Positions 18,071-25,900 of a stretch of DNA of 64,000 nt are shown in pieces. The notes beneath the pieces are model-generated. The model was not told where the DNA came from and did not search any database. It saw only the letters and a list, made by a program, of their open reading frames with translations. A program made the position numbers and the translations under genes. This stretch comes from Bacteroidales bacterium. Its GTDB lineage: Bacteria > Bacteroidota > Bacteroidia > Bacteroidales > P3. Every line of letters starts with the position of its first letter. The stretch's first letter is position 1. The DNA is taken from assembly GCA_017522065.1 (NCBI GenBank), contig JAFXAD010000043.1, positions 1 through 64,000 of the forward strand, read 5' to 3'.

Positions 18071-18098
18071 TAGAGCTAAAAAATATATAGAATTGAAT

Positions 18099-19118
18099 AT
18101 GAAAGTAAAAAGAACTAATTTGCTTACAGTCGGGTTCATCGCAATGCTATTGATGGCATCGTGTGGAACCAAGAAAGAGAACTCCTACACCATTAACGGT
18201 ACCGTTCCTTCGCAGGTCACAGCCTCGAAGGTCTACCTCTATTCAATCGAAGAGGAAGAGCCCCTTGTGATAGATTCAGCAACAATATCGGGCGGCGCCT
18301 TCAGTTTCAAAGGTACGGCCCCCGATTCCATCATGCTCGCCATTATCCATCCCGGCTCGTTGGACGAGTACCCAACCGTTATGTGGCAGCTCGTGCTTGA
18401 ACCTGGAAACATCATGGTTGATTCGGCCGAACGTATGGCAACGGGCACACCGCTCAACGACGGCATATCCGACTGGATGGATCAGATTTACGACATTATG
18501 GTCACCGAACCGGATCCGTCGAAAATCAGCGACTTCTTTGTGCAGCACTGGTCGGAGCACTCGTCCGATTTTGTTGGTTCCTACATGCTTGCGTCGATGT
18601 CGATGTATCTTGATTTTCCGTTGGTCGACTCGCTCGTCCGTCAGGTGCCTCCTGAAGTACGTTCCATATCGATGCTCAAGCCCTTCTTCGAGCAAGTGGA
18701 GGCCATGGGTAAGATGCAGCCAGGCAAACCCTTTACAGATGTCGCATTGGCCAGCATAGACGGTGAGCCGTCGTCGCTGGGCAACTATATCGGCAAAGGG
18801 ACCTATGTGCTGGTTGATTTTTGGGCTTCATGGTGTGGTCCATGCCGCCAGGCAATGCCACAGTTGCAGAGTACTGTCAAGAGACATAAAGACCTCACGG
18901 TCATTGGTATCGCGCTCAGCGACGAAGTCGACGATACGAAGAAAGCCATCGGCGACCTTGGCATAACGTGGCCCGTGCTTAGCGATCCCGAAGGTGAATC
19001 CGCCAAGGCATACGGCATCAACGCTATCCCTGCCATGATTCTTTTTGCCCCCGACGGCACCATCGCCGCTCGCGATTTTCAGGTCGAAGAGCTCGACAGC
19101 CTCCTCGCAGTCGAATAG
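18099..19118 (+). CDS. Thioredoxin-like lipoprotein (DUF4369-AhpC/TSA type)
   Basis: 339 residues from the ATG at 18099. Lipobox LLMASC (Cys ~22). Residues ~30-125 resemble DUF4369 (YTINGTVPSQVTASKVYLYS). The C-terminal ~140 residues are a thioredoxin-like domain with the active site WASWCGPCRQ and the cis-Pro loop INAIPAMILFAPDG. This TlpA/ResA-like protein probably reduces or isomerises disulfides in the periplasm. It follows the oxidoreductase by 70 bp and may be co-transcribed. Confidence 0.9.
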   Translation: MKVKRTNLLTVGFIAMLLMASCGTKKENSYTINGTVPSQVTASKVYLYSIEEEEPLVIDSATISGGAFSFKGTAPDSIMLAIIHPGSLDEYPTVMWQLVLEPGNIMVDSAERMATGTPLNDGISDWMDQIYDIMVTEPDPSKISDFFVQHWSEHSSDFVGSYMLASMSMYLDFPLVDSLVRQVPPEVRSISMLKPFFEQVEAMGKMQPGKPFTDVALASIDGEPSSLGNYIGKGTYVLVDFWASWCGPCRQAMPQLQSTVKRHKDLTVIGIALSDEVDDTKKAIGDLGITWPVLSDPEGESAKAYGINAIPAMILFAPDGTIAARDFQVEELDSLLAVE

Positions 19119-19145
19119 CCCTACTGAGAATACTTAACAATTGAA

Positions 19146-19190
19146 AATAGAGGCATCATACTTGATTATGATGCCTCTATTTGTTTTTGT
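19146..19190. terminator. Bidirectional terminator between convergent genes
   Basis: A 15-bp stem AATAGAGGCATCATA / TATGATGCCTCTATT with a 6-base loop is followed by TTGTTTTTG. It separates the thioredoxin-like gene (+) from the ion channel gene (-). Confidence 0.85.
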
Positions 19191-19201
19191 TTAGGTGGTG
19201 T

Positions 19202-20938
19202 TTATTGCGGGAAAGAGTCCAACAGCACCTTGATGGCGGCGTAGTAGCGTTCGTCGGAGGCCTTGAGAATGGTTTTGACGTTGAGGTAGATTGCCACCAC
19301 GGAGGCTCCGGTGTGGTTGAAGATGGCTCGAGCTATGTGGGCGTCGTCGAGGCCGAAGCATTTGCTGGCGTGAGTGGTGAAGGAGAAGTTGAAGGTGAAA
19401 TCTTTGCGCGCAGCGGAGTGAACGGTGACTTCGGCGGCGTTGCTGCGCATGCGTTCGCAGAAGTCCTCCACCCACTGGCGGTCGCTCTCGGCCACATGAG
19501 CACCGTCGAACCGGTAGCCTTCGCTGCCCGATGGCATGCCCCACTGCACTTCGATATCGGCTCTGCCACTTGCCCCACTCATGATGCAGATCACCCGCTG
19601 ACCACGATGGATTAGCTGCAGGGTTTTGATGTAGTCGGCAAAGATGGCATTGCCTGCTGCCTCGGTTTCGTTGCACTTTCCAGAGGTCGGCGTCAACAGG
19701 TCGCTGGGCACATTCATGTCGGCGTAGAAGGGGCTGGAAGTCTGACCGGTTTCGTTAGCCACGCCGTAGAAACGTCGTTCGCGGCAGATGAGGTTGAAGG
19801 GCGTGTTTTCGCTGCAAGTGGCGGCGATGTGCGAGAGCGAGTGTTCCGTAGCATTGTAGGGGAAAAGGAGGACGGTTTGTTCCTCTTGGTTCCATCGGCT
19901 GTAGCCGAAGGTGGTGTTGGAGAGAAACTTTTCGACCACCGTCATGTCGGAAACCCGCAGGTTTTCGTCGCTCTTCATAGGGCGTAGACGCATGTCGGAA
20001 GAGGAACGCACGGTCTCGAGAATCTCGTTGTCGGTGAGCATGCAGATGGAGCGCAGGTATTCGGTGGAGAGGTAGCGCGCCGGAGCAGGTCGTGAGTGGA
20101 GGTCGTCGCTGATGAGGATTTTCTTGCCGGAATGCTGTGCATCGAAGCGTTGGTAGAGGAGGTTGCGGCGCTCGGCCAGTTCCTCTTGTTTACGTGATTC
20201 CTCTATCGTTTCGATGAATCCGGAGCCGATGAGACCTGCCGGAACAGCGAAGATGGCGATGCCCATCACGCCCACCAGCACGGCAATCAGGCGTCCCCAG
20301 AAGGTGATGGGTGGCGTGTCGGCGAAACCGCCTGGGTCGCCGATATACTGCATAAAAGCCCAGAGCACGCTACGCCATCCGTTGTCGTAGACCTCCGGTT
20401 GAGCCTGGTGCTCGACGAAGAAAAGCAGGAACGACAGGATGAGTGTCACGATGCAGAGGAACTGCAGCGAAATCCAGAGCTCGCGGCGTTTGGAGCGAAA
20501 CGCGTCGCCCAGCAGTCGGAACGACTTCATGTAGCGGAACACGCGGAGCAGTCGGAAGACGCGGAGCACCTTCAGCGCCGAGTATGGCACGGGGAAGAGC
20601 AGGGCGACATAGAAACTGTAGGTAGAAACGATGTCGATGAGTCCGTAGAAGGAGAGGCAGTAGCGCACTCGGCCCCAAAAGCCCTTGTATTTCGTGTCCA
20701 GCAGGTCGGCGCACCAGATGCGCAGCGTCACCTCGATGGTGAAGACAACCGTAGTAAAAATGTCGATAGCTTTCAGCCATGCGCCGTAGCGAAGGCTGAT
20801 GCTGTCGAAGGTGGAGAGGAACACCTCGACGGTGCTGATGATGATAAGGCCGATGATGGCCCAGTCGACTTTGTTCTCCCACTGCCGTGTGCGGAGGTTG
20901 TCGTCGAAGACGCGATTGATTTGTTGTTTGAAAGTCAT
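19202..20938 (-). CDS. Voltage-gated-type 6-TM ion channel with unusual pore and large cytoplasmic tail
   Basis: 578 residues. S1 ~25-44, S2 ~55-75, S3 ~92-115, S4 with basic residues at every third place (K123, R126, R129, R132, R135), S5 ~155-176, S6 ~216-242. The pore loop reads SVLWAFMQYIGDPGGFADTP: the K+ filter TVGYGD is not present and YIGDPGGFAD stands in its place, so selectivity is uncertain. A C-terminal ~320-residue cytoplasmic region of unknown fold follows. It starts 16 bp after the GNAT gene, so it is likely part of the same operon as the ATP-grasp ligase. Confidence 0.82.
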   Translation of the reverse strand: MTFKQQINRVFDDNLRTRQWENKVDWAIIGLIIISTVEVFLSTFDSISLRYGAWLKAIDIFTTVVFTIEVTLRIWCADLLDTKYKGFWGRVRYCLSFYGLIDIVSTYSFYVALLFPVPYSALKVLRVFRLLRVFRYMKSFRLLGDAFRSKRRELWISLQFLCIVTLILSFLLFFVEHQAQPEVYDNGWRSVLWAFMQYIGDPGGFADTPPITFWGRLIAVLVGVMGIAIFAVPAGLIGSGFIETIEESRKQEELAERRNLLYQRFDAQHSGKKILISDDLHSRPAPARYLSTEYLRSICMLTDNEILETVRSSSDMRLRPMKSDENLRVSDMTVVEKFLSNTTFGYSRWNQEEQTVLLFPYNATEHSLSHIAATCSENTPFNLICRERRFYGVANETGQTSSPFYADMNVPSDLLTPTSGKCNETEAAGNAIFADYIKTLQLIHRGQRVICIMSGASGRADIEVQWGMPSGSEGYRFDGAHVAESDRQWVEDFCERMRSNAAEVTVHSAARKDFTFNFSFTTHASKCFGLDDAHIARAIFNHTGASVVAIYLNVKTILKASDERYYAAIKVLLDSFPQ

Positions 20939-20954
20939 GAGTCAAAAAGTTTGT

Positions 20955-21464
20955 TTAAGCTTTGCAGTCATCGTTTGGCGATCGTTTTTTGACATAGCGA
21001 ATATATGGACTGCTGTCGTCAGGGACTTCTTTGGCGACAAACCCCAGAAAGTCTAAGAATTTGCGGACTGCAATGTTGTCTTTTGCAATGGTGGTACAAA
21101 TTGTCTTGTCGGCGTATTGGCGCATTATGCTGTCGACGAATCGTACAGTCAGCATAAAGTAGGCACGGTTAAGTAGCGTGTCATGCCTAAAAAAACTGCC
21201 GTGTAATTCAATTTCGCCATCGAAAAACAGGTCGATGATGCGATAGAAACCAACGATGGTTTGATCCAGCAGAATCAGGAAGAAGGTGTCTAATTCAGAC
21301 GACACAAGTTTACCGTCTGGCGGGAAACTCTTGCGCGCATCTTCGTCGGAGATGGCTTCCGTAATTACATTGGTGTCGTTGCAGAGACGTATGTGCAGTT
21401 CCCCGTACGACAGCACCAGCTTTTCAACGTTGGCCTTTATTGGCTTGTTTCTTTCTGATTTCAT
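20955..21464 (-). CDS. GNAT-like acetyltransferase
   Basis: 169 residues from the ATG at 21464. The pattern resembles GNAT: a strand with TFFLILLDQTIVGFYRI, EIELHGSFFRHDTLLNRAYFMLTVRFVD, then TTIAKDNIAVRKFLDFLGF, the usual C-terminal motif. It overlaps the end of the ATP-grasp gene by 41 bp, so they are almost certainly co-translated. In a peptide-modification locus it could acetylate the peptide, but the substrate is unknown. Confidence 0.7.
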   Translation of the reverse strand: MKSERNKPIKANVEKLVLSYGELHIRLCNDTNVITEAISDEDARKSFPPDGKLVSSELDTFFLILLDQTIVGFYRIIDLFFDGEIELHGSFFRHDTLLNRAYFMLTVRFVDSIMRQYADKTICTTIAKDNIAVRKFLDFLGFVAKEVPDDSSPYIRYVKKRSPNDDCKA

Positions 21465-22437
21465 TTGCAAACAAGTCGCTTAGTTTCTGCGATATGGGAA
21501 GTCCTGCTTCCTCCTCGAGCCACATCCACTGTCCGTTGGTGTTGCATTCCAAAAATATGTAATTGTCGTGAGTGTCAACAATGAAATCGAAGCATCCGAA
21601 GTTGAGTTTCATCTCCTTGAGAAATTCGAAGCACTTTTGCTGCAATTCGTTTGGCAGAGTGTCTTTGACGAACGTGATGCCGTGGTCGTACCCTTGTCGC
21701 CAATCCACGGCCCCTTCGTTCTGCTGCATATTCTGGCTGTCGATTCGTGCGGTAAAGCATTCGTCCTTGATCACAGTGACGCGAAGCTCGTATTTTTTCT
21801 CCACGTATTTTTCGATGAAATTGATACTGTTGCGGAACGAGGCATCACCCAAAGCACGTATGTCGTCGGGCTTCCGTTTGTGTGTGTAGAAAACAATACT
21901 GCCTTCGTCGCCGGCAGGGATATCGAACGACCAGATTGGTTTTACGGCAACGTCACTATCACCAAATAGCGAGAGGTCGGAAAGCCGGTTGGAAAAGAGG
22001 GTATCAGGTATGTTGAAGCCGACCTTCCGTGCTACTTTTTTCTGTAGAATTTTGCTTCCTGCGGCGCGTTCGTAGAGGGGGTGACCTATCCAAAGCAGAT
22101 CGTCGGGCAATGCGTAGCGAAAGAAGCGTACGAATCCGTCAGCTTCATCGAGTAGCAGTTTCCTCACCTGCTCGGAGGGTATGTCGTCGTAGGTGGTGAG
22201 CGGTTCAATGGGGCGGCGCTCCCATACACAGCTTATCTGCTCGCTATTGATGGAATGGGGGTAGTGCTTGTAGCGTATCTCGAAATGGGCACCGTCGTTG
22301 CCTAACCAATAGGAAATGTCGTAGTCGGACACCAGTTTGTCGGTATTCAGCCTGAAAAGCGGCAGTCCTGACTTGTTAAGGTTTTCGATTACAGGATTAG
22401 GGTGGACGTCGGTGTCGTTAGTAATGATAAGAAGCAT
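21424..22437 (-). CDS. ATP-grasp ligase of the MvdD/GwsG (graspetide maturase) type
   Basis: 337 residues from the ATG at 22437. The N-terminus MLLIITNDTDVHPNPVIENL...LFRLNTDKL matches the pre-ATP-grasp domain of MvdC/MvdD- and GwsG-type peptide ligases. The ATP-grasp core includes KKVARKVGFNIPDTLFSN, VAVKPIW, YVEKKYELRVTVI and the metal site FDFIVDTHDNYIFLECNTNGQW (E and N for Mg). Such enzymes form ester or amide links between side chains of a precursor peptide. The preceding short ORF is the candidate substrate. A RimK-like role on another protein is the main alternative. Confidence 0.82.
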   Translation of the reverse strand: MLLIITNDTDVHPNPVIENLNKSGLPLFRLNTDKLVSDYDISYWLGNDGAHFEIRYKHYPHSINSEQISCVWERRPIEPLTTYDDIPSEQVRKLLLDEADGFVRFFRYALPDDLLWIGHPLYERAAGSKILQKKVARKVGFNIPDTLFSNRLSDLSLFGDSDVAVKPIWSFDIPAGDEGSIVFYTHKRKPDDIRALGDASFRNSINFIEKYVEKKYELRVTVIKDECFTARIDSQNMQQNEGAVDWRQGYDHGITFVKDTLPNELQQKCFEFLKEMKLNFGCFDFIVDTHDNYIFLECNTNGQWMWLEEEAGLPISQKLSDLFANEIRKKQANKGQR

Positions 22438-22452
22438 TAATGAGTCGTGTAT

Positions 22453-22494
22453 GATAAAACAAAGCGTTGGAGACCGAAAGAAGGTCTCCAACGC
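22453..22494 (-). terminator. Hairpin between peptide gene and ATP-grasp gene (attenuator)
   Basis: On the minus strand a perfect 12-bp stem (GCGTTGGAGACC / GGTCTCCAACGC, 22464-22494) with a 7-base loop is followed by TTTGTTTTATC. It sits 9 bp after the stop of the short peptide gene and 16 bp before the ligase start. It could end most transcripts there, giving more peptide than ligase mRNA, or protect the upstream message. Confidence 0.8.
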
Positions 22495-22502
22495 GTTCAT
22501 AT

Positions 22503-22748
22503 TTATTTTTCTTTGGCGTCGTCGACGACGTTCTTGTACTTGGGAGAGAACCAACTGCCAACGTTTTCGGCCGACTTGGTCACTTTCTTGTCGCTGCCGC
22601 AAAAGAAGGGATGGATAGTCATCTGCGAATTGTAGTCGTAGTATTCGACCACTGGGGTCTCGTTTGAGTGGGCGTATTTTTCATAGTCGCCGAAAGCGAG
22701 AATAGGAGGGAGCGGAGACTGATTGTAAAGAGAAGATCTGTTGTTCAT
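22503..22748 (-). CDS. Short peptide, candidate precursor for the ATP-grasp ligase
   Basis: 81 residues with no signal peptide or TM segment. N-terminal half is Pro/Tyr-rich (NQSPLPPILAFGDYEKY); the middle is acidic (SNETPVVEYYDYNSQMT), then HPFFCGSDKK and a Lys/Asp/Glu-rich tail ending DDAKEK. Side chains that could form ester or amide links (Thr, Ser, Asp, Glu, Lys) are plentiful, and a PFF motif recalls microviridin leaders, though it is not at the usual place. The role is inferred from size and position 12 bp after the TerB-like gene and just before the ligase. Confidence 0.6.
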   Translation of the reverse strand: MNNRSSLYNQSPLPPILAFGDYEKYAHSNETPVVEYYDYNSQMTIHPFFCGSDKKVTKSAENVGSWFSPKYKNVVDDAKEK

Positions 22749-22760
22749 ATTATTTGCTCT

Positions 22761-23174
22761 TTAAAGGTTTAACAATTTTTTCATATCATCGATGGCCTTT
22801 TTCTCTTTGTCAGAAATGCCATCGGCAGCCTCTGCGGTGGATGTCATAAGCTCGGCTATAATGCTTTTGAGTTCACCTTTGCCATTGGTTTCCTCTTTGA
22901 TGCATTCGAGAGCAACATAGCGAAGTGTTGCATCAGCGCAAAGCATGTGGCAGAACTCTTTGTACATCTCGCACATGACAAGTTCGTCCTCGTCAGCTGC
23001 GCCCTTGATGGCAGCAACAATGTTTTGTTTCTCCAACTTGTCGAAAGTGCCATCGGCCAAAGCGACCAGACCTGCGGGGTACATAACAAGCAGGGATGAG
23101 AACTGATCAATCGAAAGACAGGAATGTCTTTGTGCTTGATACATGTCATAAAACTCTTGTAGTTTCATAAGCAT
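22761..23174 (-). CDS. TerB-like (DUF533-type) protein
   Basis: 137 residues (or 135 from an ATG at 23168). All-helical. Two segments of the TerB type, LVALADGTFDKLEKQNIVAAI (residues ~35-55) and EAADGISDKEKKAIDDM (~113-130), contain the DG..D..E pattern that binds metal in TerB. It is the first gene of the probable operon; comparative work has linked TerB domains to ATP-grasp enzymes. Its role here is unknown. Confidence 0.65.
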   Translation of the reverse strand: MLMKLQEFYDMYQAQRHSCLSIDQFSSLLVMYPAGLVALADGTFDKLEKQNIVAAIKGAADEDELVMCEMYKEFCHMLCADATLRYVALECIKEETNGKGELKSIIAELMTSTAEAADGISDKEKKAIDDMKKLLNL

Positions 23175-23387
23175 AATTTTTAACTATTGTACCATGCTTT
23201 AAAGGGATGGCACTTACCTTGTATTTGAGTATCGAGGATTGTTACATCAGAATTCCATTTTTTTCATACGATACTCCTTACATCGACGTTGTATCCTTAG
23301 TGTGTCTGAAATCAAATTTTTCGATGTGCAAAGTTAACAGATATTCACACTCGTTGCTTGTTTCTAATTTGTATCTTTTTGTAATAT

Positions 23388-23427
23388 GCTAAAAAACAAA
23401 ACATCCCGACGCTGTGCGACGGGATGT
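23388..23427 (-). terminator. Terminator after the kinase gene
   Basis: On the minus strand ACATCCCG / CGGGATGT with an 11-base loop is followed by TTTTGTTTTTTAG. It ends the kinase transcript. Confidence 0.85.
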
Positions 23428-23464
23428 GCCACGCAAAAAAACGCGTTTTTTCAATGTTCGGTTT

Positions 23465-25213
23465 TCAATATCCTTTGATATTCAGTTTGGCGAAATTGGT
23501 GTCGGCCATGTAGCGTTCCAGAGCTTCGGCAGGGACAAGCACCAAGGGGTTGGGGCTCTCTTGGACGAAGCTGAACGTGGTGGCGGTCACTTTCGGCGGT
23601 TCCGGCGAGCGGAAAACGATGGTGTCGAGGTTGCGGTAGCCGTATAGGTTGCCGGAACCCAAATATTTCAGTCCTAATCCGAACTCCACGTAGCGGCAGT
23701 TGAACAACACCCCGATGCCGTAGTTCTCGATTTCCTCTATCTGGTCGGGGATGACGAGACGGTGTATTCCGCAGCCATAGAAGCAGCTTTGGTCTATCGT
23801 CCGCAGCGTTGAAGGGAAGTGTATGCGCTCCAGGTTGTATAGTTCCGAGAGAGACCCCTCACCCAAATGCGTCAATCCTTCCTCTATCCAGATGTCCGTA
23901 ACACCCCAGTAGGCCCATTCGAAAAGTTTTTCGCATAGGCTGTCGACGGTGTTGGCGATGATAACGTCCTTCATCGACACCGTGTTGCCGAAGCGACCGT
24001 ACTTGTCTGGCTCCTTCTTGAGGTGCAGTCGGCGGCTTTCGACACGGCAGGCCTTGATATGCTCGCAGTTGTCGAAAACGTGGTCGCCCATGTATTCAAG
24101 CCCTTCGGTGAGCAGCAGGGTGTCGCTCAGATTGGAGCAACCCGAAAAGGCTTCGTCACCGATGCGTCGTAGCGAGGAGGGGAAGATCACCCTGGTCAGT
24201 CCGCTCTGCTGGAAGAAGGCCCGTTCGCCTATTTCGCGGAGAGGATAGTTGAAGAGGCCGTGCCGCACGCGCTCGGGCAATACGAGCGAGCCGCTTAGCG
24301 TGTCTACACCAACTATTCGGGCTTCTGAGTCAACAATCTTTATCTGAAGCACTTGTCCGTTGTTCACAGTATAGGAGAACACATCGCTGTTGTAATGCTT
24401 CATTGTATAAAGCATCAGCACGGCCGCCAGCACAGCCAATAGGGGTACGGTCCAGAGAACAACCTTCGTCCGAAGCAGTGCGGAGCGGACAGCTTCGGCA
24501 GAATGGTAGCGCTGCTCGCGTCGGTGACGGCAGCATCGTGCGGCAACAGCGCGGTAGCAGTGGGGAAATGTTAGTCGCAGCAGCCGCCCGAAACTAAAGA
24601 TGTCGCTGCGGCAGTCGAGGTCGCCTCCCTCCATCTGTTCGGGCGAGGCATAGCTCAGCGTATAGGCTGGTTCTTTGAACACGGCGTAGCGGTCACCGTC
24701 GGAAAGACCGAAGTCGATGACGCGGACATTGTTGCCGTTGCGGGTAATGAGGATGTTGCTTGGTTTGAGGTCGCGGTGCACCAGCTGTACTTTGTGCCAA
24801 TGCGCCATGGCATCGAGCAACTGCAGCATAGCACGTCGGCGCATAGTGGCCGACGGGTGGTCGTCGCGCAGCCATTGGTCAAGAGGCATGCCGTCCACAT
24901 ATTCCATTACGATACAGAGTCCGATGCCATCGACCTCTTCGAGCGAATAGACTCGGACAATGTTGGGGTGGCTCACCTGAATCATGATTTCGAACTCTTT
25001 GTGCAGCAGGGAGCGATACTCTTCTTCATCGCGATAGTCGGGCTTGAGCCCTTTCAGGACGAAATACTTGCCGTAACGGACAGCACGCACAATCCGATTA
25101 TAGCCATGCGATGCAATCTCTTCAAATTGCGAGAAAGATGTATCGAGTGTGTAATGTTCTGCAATGTTGGGCGATATGCGTCCAGAGCTATCGTTGTTGA
25201 CTATAGTACTCAT
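23465..25213 (-). CDS. Hanks-type Ser/Thr kinase with BspA-like leucine-rich repeats
   Basis: 582 residues from the ATG at 25213. Kinase domain ~20-245: Lys54 (FVLKGLK), HRDLKPSN 146-153, DFG 167-169, SPE 190-192. The Gly-rich loop is degenerate (ASHGYNRIV). A TM segment at 251-271 is followed by a ~310-residue region with BspA-type LRR_5 repeats (IGERAFFQQSGLTRVIFPSSLRRIGDEAF and similar), predicted to be periplasmic or surface-exposed. The layout is that of a receptor kinase with the kinase first. Targets are unknown. It diverges from the next gene (105 bp). Confidence 0.87.
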   Translation of the reverse strand: MSTIVNNDSSGRISPNIAEHYTLDTSFSQFEEIASHGYNRIVRAVRYGKYFVLKGLKPDYRDEEEYRSLLHKEFEIMIQVSHPNIVRVYSLEEVDGIGLCIVMEYVDGMPLDQWLRDDHPSATMRRRAMLQLLDAMAHWHKVQLVHRDLKPSNILITRNGNNVRVIDFGLSDGDRYAVFKEPAYTLSYASPEQMEGGDLDCRSDIFSFGRLLRLTFPHCYRAVAARCCRHRREQRYHSAEAVRSALLRTKVVLWTVPLLAVLAAVLMLYTMKHYNSDVFSYTVNNGQVLQIKIVDSEARIVGVDTLSGSLVLPERVRHGLFNYPLREIGERAFFQQSGLTRVIFPSSLRRIGDEAFSGCSNLSDTLLLTEGLEYMGDHVFDNCEHIKACRVESRRLHLKKEPDKYGRFGNTVSMKDVIIANTVDSLCEKLFEWAYWGVTDIWIEEGLTHLGEGSLSELYNLERIHFPSTLRTIDQSCFYGCGIHRLVIPDQIEEIENYGIGVLFNCRYVEFGLGLKYLGSGNLYGYRNLDTIVFRSPEPPKVTATTFSFVQESPNPLVLVPAEALERYMADTNFAKLNIKGY

Positions 25214-25318
25214 AGTGCAAAAATACGTAAAAAGCGCGGATGTCATTTCGTAAAAAGAAAAGAAATGGAAAAGAAATAAGGAATATTAGTATTTTTGTTG
25301 AATAAAATATTGTTATAG

Positions 25319-25900
25319 ATGTCGGATATTAATCAGAATATTAGCATATTGCGTGTTCTTGTTGAACAGGCTGTCGACCACCGTGTGAACACGTCGACCG
25401 ATTTTGCATTTCTATCCGGATGCATACAAGGACGACTGAAGCAGACTATCAGCGTTAGTACGTTGGAGCGCATCTGGGGATATGTGGAGGGTTATCAGAC
25501 GGTGAGAGAGAGCACGTTGGACATACTTTCGCGATTTGTGGGGTTCCCGGACTGGCAGACGTTTGTTTCGGACTATTGCGAAGTGTCTTCTGCACAGAGC
25601 AGCCATCGTATTTCGGCTCCTACGCTTTTAGCATCCGATGTGCCTGTTGGAGGAATAGTTGTCATTGAATGGAATCCCGGTCGCCATTGCGAGATTCGTC
25701 ATAAAGGCGCTGGAGAATGGGAGGTGACAACGAGCGTGAAAAGCAAACTGTCGGTAGGGGACACCTTCCGGTGTCAACGTTTCACTTTGAATCAGCCCTT
25801 ATATCTTGAAGACTATTGTCATGCTACCGAGCAACCCAGCCTCTTTGTGGTAGGCAATCGCGGTGGCTTGACGAAGGCTGCTGTATTGTCCCTTTCCTGA
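25319..25900 (+). CDS. Putative DNA-binding protein of a Bacteroidota family
   Basis: 193 residues. The N-terminal ~85 residues contain ISVSTLERIWGYVEGYQTVRESTLDILSRFVGFPDWQTF, a pattern I know from many Bacteroidota proteins of unknown function that look like helix-turn-helix regulators. The C-terminal ~90 residues are beta-rich. It is divergent from the kinase gene and may act with it. Function is not known. Confidence 0.55.
   Translation: MSDINQNISILRVLVEQAVDHRVNTSTDFAFLSGCIQGRLKQTISVSTLERIWGYVEGYQTVRESTLDILSRFVGFPDWQTFVSDYCEVSSAQSSHRISAPTLLASDVPVGGIVVIEWNPGRHCEIRHKGAGEWEVTTSVKSKLSVGDTFRCQRFTLNQPLYLEDYCHATEQPSLFVVGNRGGLTKAAVLSLS

Follow-up and report, generated by a model that had tools for sequence, protein, structure and literature searches.

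A probable graspetide-type operon with a TerB-like partner in a Bacteroidales genome

Introduction

Does the ATP-grasp ligase encoded in a five-gene cluster of a Bacteroidales bacterium modify the short peptide encoded beside it, and which of the neighbouring genes take part? The cluster lies on contig JAFXAD010000043.1, of which positions 1 to 64,000 were analysed; this whole stretch is called the window. Open reading frame (ORF) calling gave, on the minus strand in 19202-23174, genes for a TerB-like protein, a short ORF product, the ligase, a GNAT-like protein and an ion channel. The initial annotation had described them as a candidate operon with gaps of 12, 65, -41 and 16 bp, and exactly these values were reproduced with the ligase starting at 22437 and the GNAT-like gene at ATG 21464, the latter placed by eye (Table 1). 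The best explanation of the locus would be an operon for a graspetide-type ribosomally synthesized and post-translationally modified peptide with a TerB-like partner, working by the mechanism proposed below; we put the probability of this explanation at roughly 80%. The channel, judging from gene order and phylogeny, is a repeated or exchanged association and not a fixed fifth gene.

Table 1. Positions of the genes, motifs and transcription signals discussed in the text
Feature	Position	Strand	Evidence or remark
Terminator-like hairpin between channel and convergent plus-strand gene 18093-19118	19145..19182	.	Listed for plus strand only
Ion_trans-family channel	19202..20938	-	PF00520 2.8e-20, 73 bits vs cut-off 25
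GNAT-like protein of unproven family, 169 aa	20955..21464	-	Overlaps ligase by 41 bp; homologue after ligase in L001
ATP-grasp ligase, graspetide-synthetase kind by profile, 337 aa	21424..22437	-	NCBIfam, Pfam and PDB profile matches
Terminator-like hairpin between precursor and ligase	22464..22494	-	12-bp stem, T-rich tail; z -6.7
Putative graspetide precursor, 81 aa	22503..22748	-	Homologous ORF adjoining ligase in 13/13 loci
Predicted core, residues 57-79	22512..22580	-	Possible donors T57, S59, S65; K72 N73, D76 D77, K79
Leader motif PILAF, residues 15-19	22692..22706	-	Fits Phhx(1,2)h; P15 invariant in 6
TerB-like protein, 137 aa	22761..23174	-	12 bp upstream of precursor; Pfam TerB 15.5 bits, cut-off 24.4
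TAACTTTG, possible -7 box of Bacteroidota type	23329..23336	-	Candidate; one of three TAnnTTTG matches on minus strand in 19081-25400
Ser/Thr kinase with BspA-type leucine-rich repeats, neighbour	23465..25246	-	PF00069 1.6e-31, LRR_5 3.5e-38; operon membership not claimed

The ligase and its relatives

The ligase is, by its profile matches, of the graspetide-maturase kind. Four graspetide models of NCBIfam scored it at 112-187 bits (TIGR04187 4e-55, 187 bits; MvdC 1.1e-51; MvdD 1e-39; grasp-with-spasm TIGR04192 3.1e-32, 112 bits), far ahead of the RimK model TIGR00768 (1.4e-05, 24.6 bits, below its cut-off), so that the grouping with RimK-type enzymes which the initial annotation had named as evidence against its proposal was not observed. 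The same annotation had called the N-terminal domain typical of graspetide maturases, and the MvdD pre-ATP-grasp domain PF21068 indeed passes its cut-off (33.2 vs 27 bits). When a profile of six relatives was compared with the PDB, six sequences were found at E <= 0.001 (5ig8, 5ig9, 7m4s, 7mgv, 9bou and 7drm), 5ig8 at 4.4e-50; 5ig8 and 5ig9 are microviridin enzymes. Among six aligned ligases, the DxR motif D245/R247 is invariant together with K166, E217, R219, D284, E297 and N299. PMC13097080 calls a DFR motif critical.

Relatives were sought at several taxonomic levels. A tblastn search of genome contigs gave one locus, L001, from a Bacteroidales metagenome-assembled genome, whose ligase is 61% identical. 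Some ligase match at E <= 1e-8 was present in 27 of 393 genomes of the window's order, and subfamily members among these were found in the window's own genome (G000), G170, G088, G290 and G081. When single families were searched with the six-row profile, G415 came from a set of 56 genomes and six further members, all of genus g82, from one of 31; there were none in two families with 3 genomes apiece. Sampling at class and phylum level (395 genomes in each case, with some overlap) gave no further member, the best matches outside the window's genome being 4.6e-70 and 4.8e-66, as against 7.3e-150 or lower within the subfamily, where 6 of the 13 members are profile seeds and match by construction (L001, found by tblastn, is one of them). 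The subfamily comprises 13 loci in 7 distinct lineages, with 7 loci from the single genus g82. In the ligase tree, from which G742 and G524 were omitted, the ligases of the window and L001 are sisters (100/100). The window's genome, about 91% complete, has one ligase match at E <= 1e-8.

The putative precursor peptide

The short ORF had no match in NCBIfam, Pfam or PHROGs, and the case for it as a precursor comes from its recurrence. In all 13 loci an ORF of 79-90 residues adjoins the ligase gene, its end lying from 70 bp before to 4 bp inside the ligase start. A P-h-h leader motif occurs in every one of these precursors; the Phhx(1,2)h signature is found in about half of published graspetide precursors, according to PMC8939145. 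The core pattern Tx[SC][AL]x4[ST]x(6-17)KNxxDDxK is likewise present in 13/13, in 7 distinct core sequences, and its T, T/S, K and DD are kept throughout. Scanning 8703 open frames from 158 overlapping sequences gave 31 matches, each of them a copy of the precursor and 7 of them distinct, for a pattern that was written after the sequences had been seen. Recurring with a common motif in all 13 subfamily loci, the short ORF beside the ligase exceeds chance. A leader and core conserved beside homologous ligases are what the initial annotation had proposed to look for, taking a peptide not conserved there as evidence against its idea; the conservation extends to every locus.

It was found that the g82 precursors are under strong purifying selection: 203 synonymous and 21 non-synonymous codon differences were counted over 15 non-independent pairs of 6 of the 7 sequences, G446 being left out for its other length. 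For the g82 ligases the corresponding counts are 1099 and 229 (15 pairs of equal length; G454 omitted). The core is identical in 7/7 g82 precursors, and their few changes fall in the leader half. Over the longer distance between the window and L001, 26 of 32 aligned residues are identical from position 50 on and 21 of 46 before it. A core that is better kept than the leader is the opposite of the pattern expected for a diversifying weapon.

The TerB-like protein, a probable partner

A TerB-like gene stands 6-13 bp upstream of the precursor gene in 11/13 loci and 5/7 lineages, and it was thus rightly included in the proposed operon as a regular neighbour. Six of the 11 proteins were scored with Pfam, and the other five, all from g82, were judged by similarity. 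Those of L001 (27.8 bits), G290 (24.6), G081 (35.2) and G451 (36.8) pass the cut-off of the TerB family (PF05099), and the proteins of the window and L001 are 44% identical. The top PDB profile matches of the TerB-like protein are 2jxu (TerB, E 0.007), 8a22 (mS45, E 0.009) and 2ou3 (a tellurite resistance protein, E 0.013). No ter operon was recognised by eye around the gene, and the score of the window protein lies below the cut-off.

In G088 the same slot, 11 bp from the precursor gene, is filled by a protein of 410 aa, or 380 aa when counted from the first ATG, in which a zinc region of the DnaJ type matches PF00684 at 8.7e-05, below cut-off; the TerB protein of G081 also matches the DjlA model weakly (1.3e-4). 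Both slot-fillers recall co-chaperones, which fits a partner role like that of MirC in rosaritide synthesis, and the TerB-like protein is most likely a partner in graspetide synthesis. TerB and SurA/PpiC-like proteins differ in fold. According to PMC13097080, MirC is a chaperone-domain protein of the SurA/PpiC-like type from Micromonospora, and graspetide synthesis there is partner-dependent. The rosaritide genes (MirA/B/C) and the present ones thus have in common a precursor, a ligase and an associated chaperone-type helper, but the helper is SurA/PpiC-like in the one case and TerB-like, with a putative partner role, in the other.

Comparison with known graspetide systems

The features found here, namely a ligase of the MvdD/MvdC/TIGR04187 kind, an adjoining conserved precursor, a leader motif, and conserved donors (S/T/K) and acceptors (D/E), are those by which a graspetide system is recognised. 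The locus would be a variant of the known graspetide operons, most probably one that includes a TerB-like partner. Microviridins have a TxKxPSD-type core and two ligases. Synthetases of the microviridin type (5ig8, 5ig9, AMdnB 7m4s and CdnC 7mgv) match the present profile over nearly their full length at E 4e-50 to 6.5e-43, and the P-h-h-type leader is shared with microviridins, in which it reads PFFARFL (PMC8939145). The present cassettes differ in their single ligase, in the TerB-like neighbour and in the core Tx[SC][AL]x4[ST]...KNxxDDxK; membership of the microviridins was rejected on the core pattern and on the one ligase match at E <= 1e-8 in the window's genome, of which about 91% is present.

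The grasp-with-spasm systems of Bacteroidota (TIGR04192; branch 5 of PMC8939145) have a related ligase (112 bits) and belong to the same phylum. They differ, according to that source, in that branch 5 is without the P-h-h leader present here and its precursors are very diverse, whereas the core is conserved here; the window precursor has no GG. Inspection of the cassettes' ORFs by eye revealed no SPASM enzyme; a family search aimed at one was not made. Published graspetide groups number 12, 24 or 43 depending on the source. TerB does not occur in the main texts of PMC8939145, PMC13097080 and PMC9576775, and a literature search gave nothing linking TerB with graspetides or microviridins; it covered main texts, so that absence from print does not follow. 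PMC7824862 mentions both TerB and ATP-grasp.

The GNAT-like gene and the ion channel

The initial annotation had placed a GNAT overlapping the ligase. The overlap stands, but the family has no profile support: no GNAT model was listed at E up to 10 in NCBIfam or Pfam for the window protein, and searches of PHROGs and PDB profiles gave no real acetyltransferase support, with one acetyltransferase PDB chain at E 0.92. The end of the protein resembles GNAT by eye only. A homologue is present in L001 (37% over 137 aa), and G170 has perhaps a partly masked one.

The channel has a C-terminal region of about 330 aa with no family match above cut-off. In L001 the GNAT-like gene is directly followed by a homologue in the same position (L001:7538-9097, its frame open where the contig ends; PF00520 77.2 bits), and with this finding the idea of a channel unrelated to the cassette was dropped. 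The same order is seen in 2/13 loci; the examined stretches around the other 11 cassettes held no channel homologue. The ligases of the window and L001 are sisters but their channels are not (p-AU in the approximately unbiased test 0.0015 at full length and 0.006 for the first 290 residues, with the tree already known when the test was made and a long branch for the window); hence the adjacency arose twice or the channel was exchanged. Inheritance of the five genes as one unit was rejected on this discordance. The channel's membership of the operon, as initially annotated, thus agrees with the common order in the window and L001 and disagrees with the 11/13 loci that are without it and with the channel tree. 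The adjacency could reflect either a functional tie or chance in a gene-rich island, and the channel link is to be taken as a lead, not as a result.

At the genome level the co-occurrence of ligase and channel is weak, and strict co-occurrence was not found. A channel match at E <= 1e-40 was present in 8/295 genomes of the order, the window's included, and in 3/12 of the ligase genomes searched; L001's genome, outside this search, also has one. Within g82 the channel is present in 2/7 genomes with a subfamily ligase vs 3/19 without. Five full-length channel carriers (G041, G148, G189, G201 and G235) have no ligase match at E <= 1e-8. Of these carriers, four share a p104 gene and an 80-aa coiled-coil gene near the channel, and three an OmpA-like gene. 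In L001, p104 and OmpA-like genes lie just upstream of the cassette; no p104 gene was found in the window's genome. In G201, a regulator, a kinase and a channel like those bounding the window's cassette have other genes between them.

An island with an Ion_trans channel, p104-type proteins and mostly an 80-aa coiled coil recurs in L109, L110, L112, L113, L130, L132 and L001:3293-5250; some channel islands also hold OmpA-like, TerB-like, KAP NTPase or Ser/Thr kinase genes. The p104 protein and the 80-aa coil had no Pfam match. On contig C11 of G463 (L130, L131) a channel (41.2-42.9 kb), a kinase (from 47.4 kb) and a cassette (about 57.2-59 kb) lie on one strand.

Proposed mechanism and alternative explanations

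The following mechanism is proposed. The precursor would present its leader PILAF to the ATP-grasp ligase, which would activate core residues with acidic side chains, the invariant pair Asp76-Asp77 being the likeliest. The activated acids would be joined to hydroxyls of the Thr57/Ser59/Ser65 array or to Lys (72 or 79), giving one or two ester or amide staples with a loss of 18 Da each. The TerB-like protein may serve as a chaperone-like partner of the precursor/ligase pair, and the hairpin after the precursor gene may let precursor output exceed ligase output. The channel behind the cassette would be a facultative module, perhaps a target or a means of self-protection.

Several observations weigh against this mechanism. 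The NCBIfam graspetide matches of the ligase all lie below their curated cut-offs, and the RimK ATP-grasp domain PF08443 also passes its Pfam cut-off (26.3 vs 21 bits). The ligase tree, with its deep forks open, does not establish a single clade of all 13, so that what defines the subfamily is the gap in scores together with the common precursor. In the core, the middle (second) donor is Cys in G170, and there are more candidate nucleophiles than acids, which allows more than one connectivity of the cross-links. The TerB scores of the window (15.5 bits) and G170 (20.8 bits) are below 24.4; a TerB-like neighbour is missing in G415, and the slot of G088 is taken by a different protein, from which it follows that TerB is not strictly required. 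Finally, neither a leader peptidase nor an exporter was recognised by eye in the cassettes (the genomes were searched for neither), except that in G415 an ORF resembling an ABC ATPase lies some 590 bp upstream of the precursor. The PF08443 match, with the sub-threshold one to TIGR00768, would suit a RimK-like ligase whose substrate, for stapling or for the addition of residues, is the TerB-like protein or some other large protein and not the short ORF product. This is highly improbable in view of the scores of the four graspetide models, the MvdD pre-ATP-grasp domain, and a short ORF that has leader and core pattern in 13/13 loci, including G415 where TerB is missing.

The two remaining alternatives concern what a stapled product would do. 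It may be a secreted antagonist, for example a protease inhibitor like microviridin, with the channel or the GNAT-like protein providing self-protection. The best profile matches with solved structures are microviridin-type ATP-grasp ligases, and group 7 clusters often hold an acetyltransferase (PMC13097080), but the scarcity of exporters and peptidases recognised by eye in the cassettes and the frozen core of the g82 precursors speak against it, and we regard this explanation as possible but rather unlikely. It has also been considered that the genes from kinase to channel form one signalling system. In this view the modified peptide would serve as an internal ligand for gating or assembling the channel, and the cassette would be a module that can be swapped in and out of a kinase-channel island. 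Such a system would account for the cassette-then-channel order in the window and L001 despite different channel lineages, and for the L001 cassette sitting between island genes (p104, OmpA-like, TerB136) and the channel. It would also suit G201, whose different payload is bounded by a channel, by a related kinase (50% over 270 aa) and by a divergent regulator (41% over 184 aa). The G170 locus would fit as well, since a gene found near the channels of G041 and G189 has a relative there, of 432 aa and 25-29% identical. It seems unlikely, however, since 11/13 cassettes are without an adjoining channel, the genome counts given above are low, regulator-kinase pairs occur also without such an adjoining channel (G340, G079), a hairpin separates kinase and cassette, and G000 is without p104. 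The fuller version, a frozen-core, intracellular stapled peptide with a TerB partner that acts as ligand or subunit of a kinase-ion-channel membrane system, its cassette being one of several interchangeable payloads, is quite unlikely.

With the graspetide operon as the preferred explanation, the group offers a defined core and a candidate second kind of graspetide partner, TerB-like after the PpiC/SurA-like MirC. If TerB were needed for macrocyclisation, a widespread and little-explained domain would gain a biochemical role. The channel neighbour is a rare genetic hint of a possible graspetide target; if the product were a ligand or subunit of the kinase-channel system, this graspetide would have a channel of its own and would work within the cell that makes it.

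Gene starts, transcription signals and neighbouring genes

The ligase frame also offers an upstream ATG at 22500, at the edge of the terminator-like hairpin. The internal ATG at 22437 is the likely start, because ATG 22500 touches the hairpin edge and the ligases of relatives start at the M[IL]L position (with GTG there in G415). L001 has a different hairpin in the same place between precursor and ligase (z -6.2). The hairpin beyond the channel may serve the convergent gene 18093-19118, since it was listed for the plus strand only. No Rfam match was found in 19000-25400.

The -7 box of Bacteroidota has the consensus TAnnTTTG. A hairpin lies 3' of the upstream kinase gene, in 23380-23440 (z -3.5), and together with the TAACTTTG box at 23336 it suggests a transcript that begins with the TerB-like gene and a separate one for the kinase. 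Relatives of the kinase stand near some channels in other genomes. Divergent to the kinase gene, a 193-aa protein without Pfam match is encoded on the plus strand (25319-25900), like the divergent regulator-kinase pair in G201; similar-looking pairs occur in G340 and G079, the regulator being recognised by eye. A PD-(D/E)XK nuclease (PF14281) follows the cassette in G088 (past a 145-aa ORF; L033:8921-10084) and in G415 (L071:7041-8309).

Mobility and other ligase groups

Mobility of the cassette within g82 was not supported, since G081, G451, G464 and G446 share flanks; those of G452, G463 and G454 differ, yet keep some of the same genes further off or on the other side (all by eye). A mobile-element origin was rejected, as the 82 plasmid and 2 phage records that matched all did so at <60% identity. 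Membership of an anti-phage family was rejected as well: PADLOC, run on 10 proteins, gave generic matches to the kinase and the KAP NTPase, a weak one to the OmpA-like protein and no others. PHROGs gave weak matches only, of unknown or unrelated function.

Distant graspetide-type ligases (25-32% identity) are held by nine IMG/VR viral contigs (L100-L108) and, at 28%, by the phage records MT835913.1 and KF114876.1, one of them from a Leptospira phage. Another ligase group (L007, L078 and L081) has precursors that start with MRPLILEF and carry T.TFT...EP.DSD-like repeats; next to follow is a protein of ~250 aa, membrane-bound in appearance. Tandem ligases with a microviridin-like precursor were also seen in the window's order (L010, L011, L029 and L030), the precursor having a PFFAKFLE leader and several cores like KAPSDDDE or KYPSDGDE.

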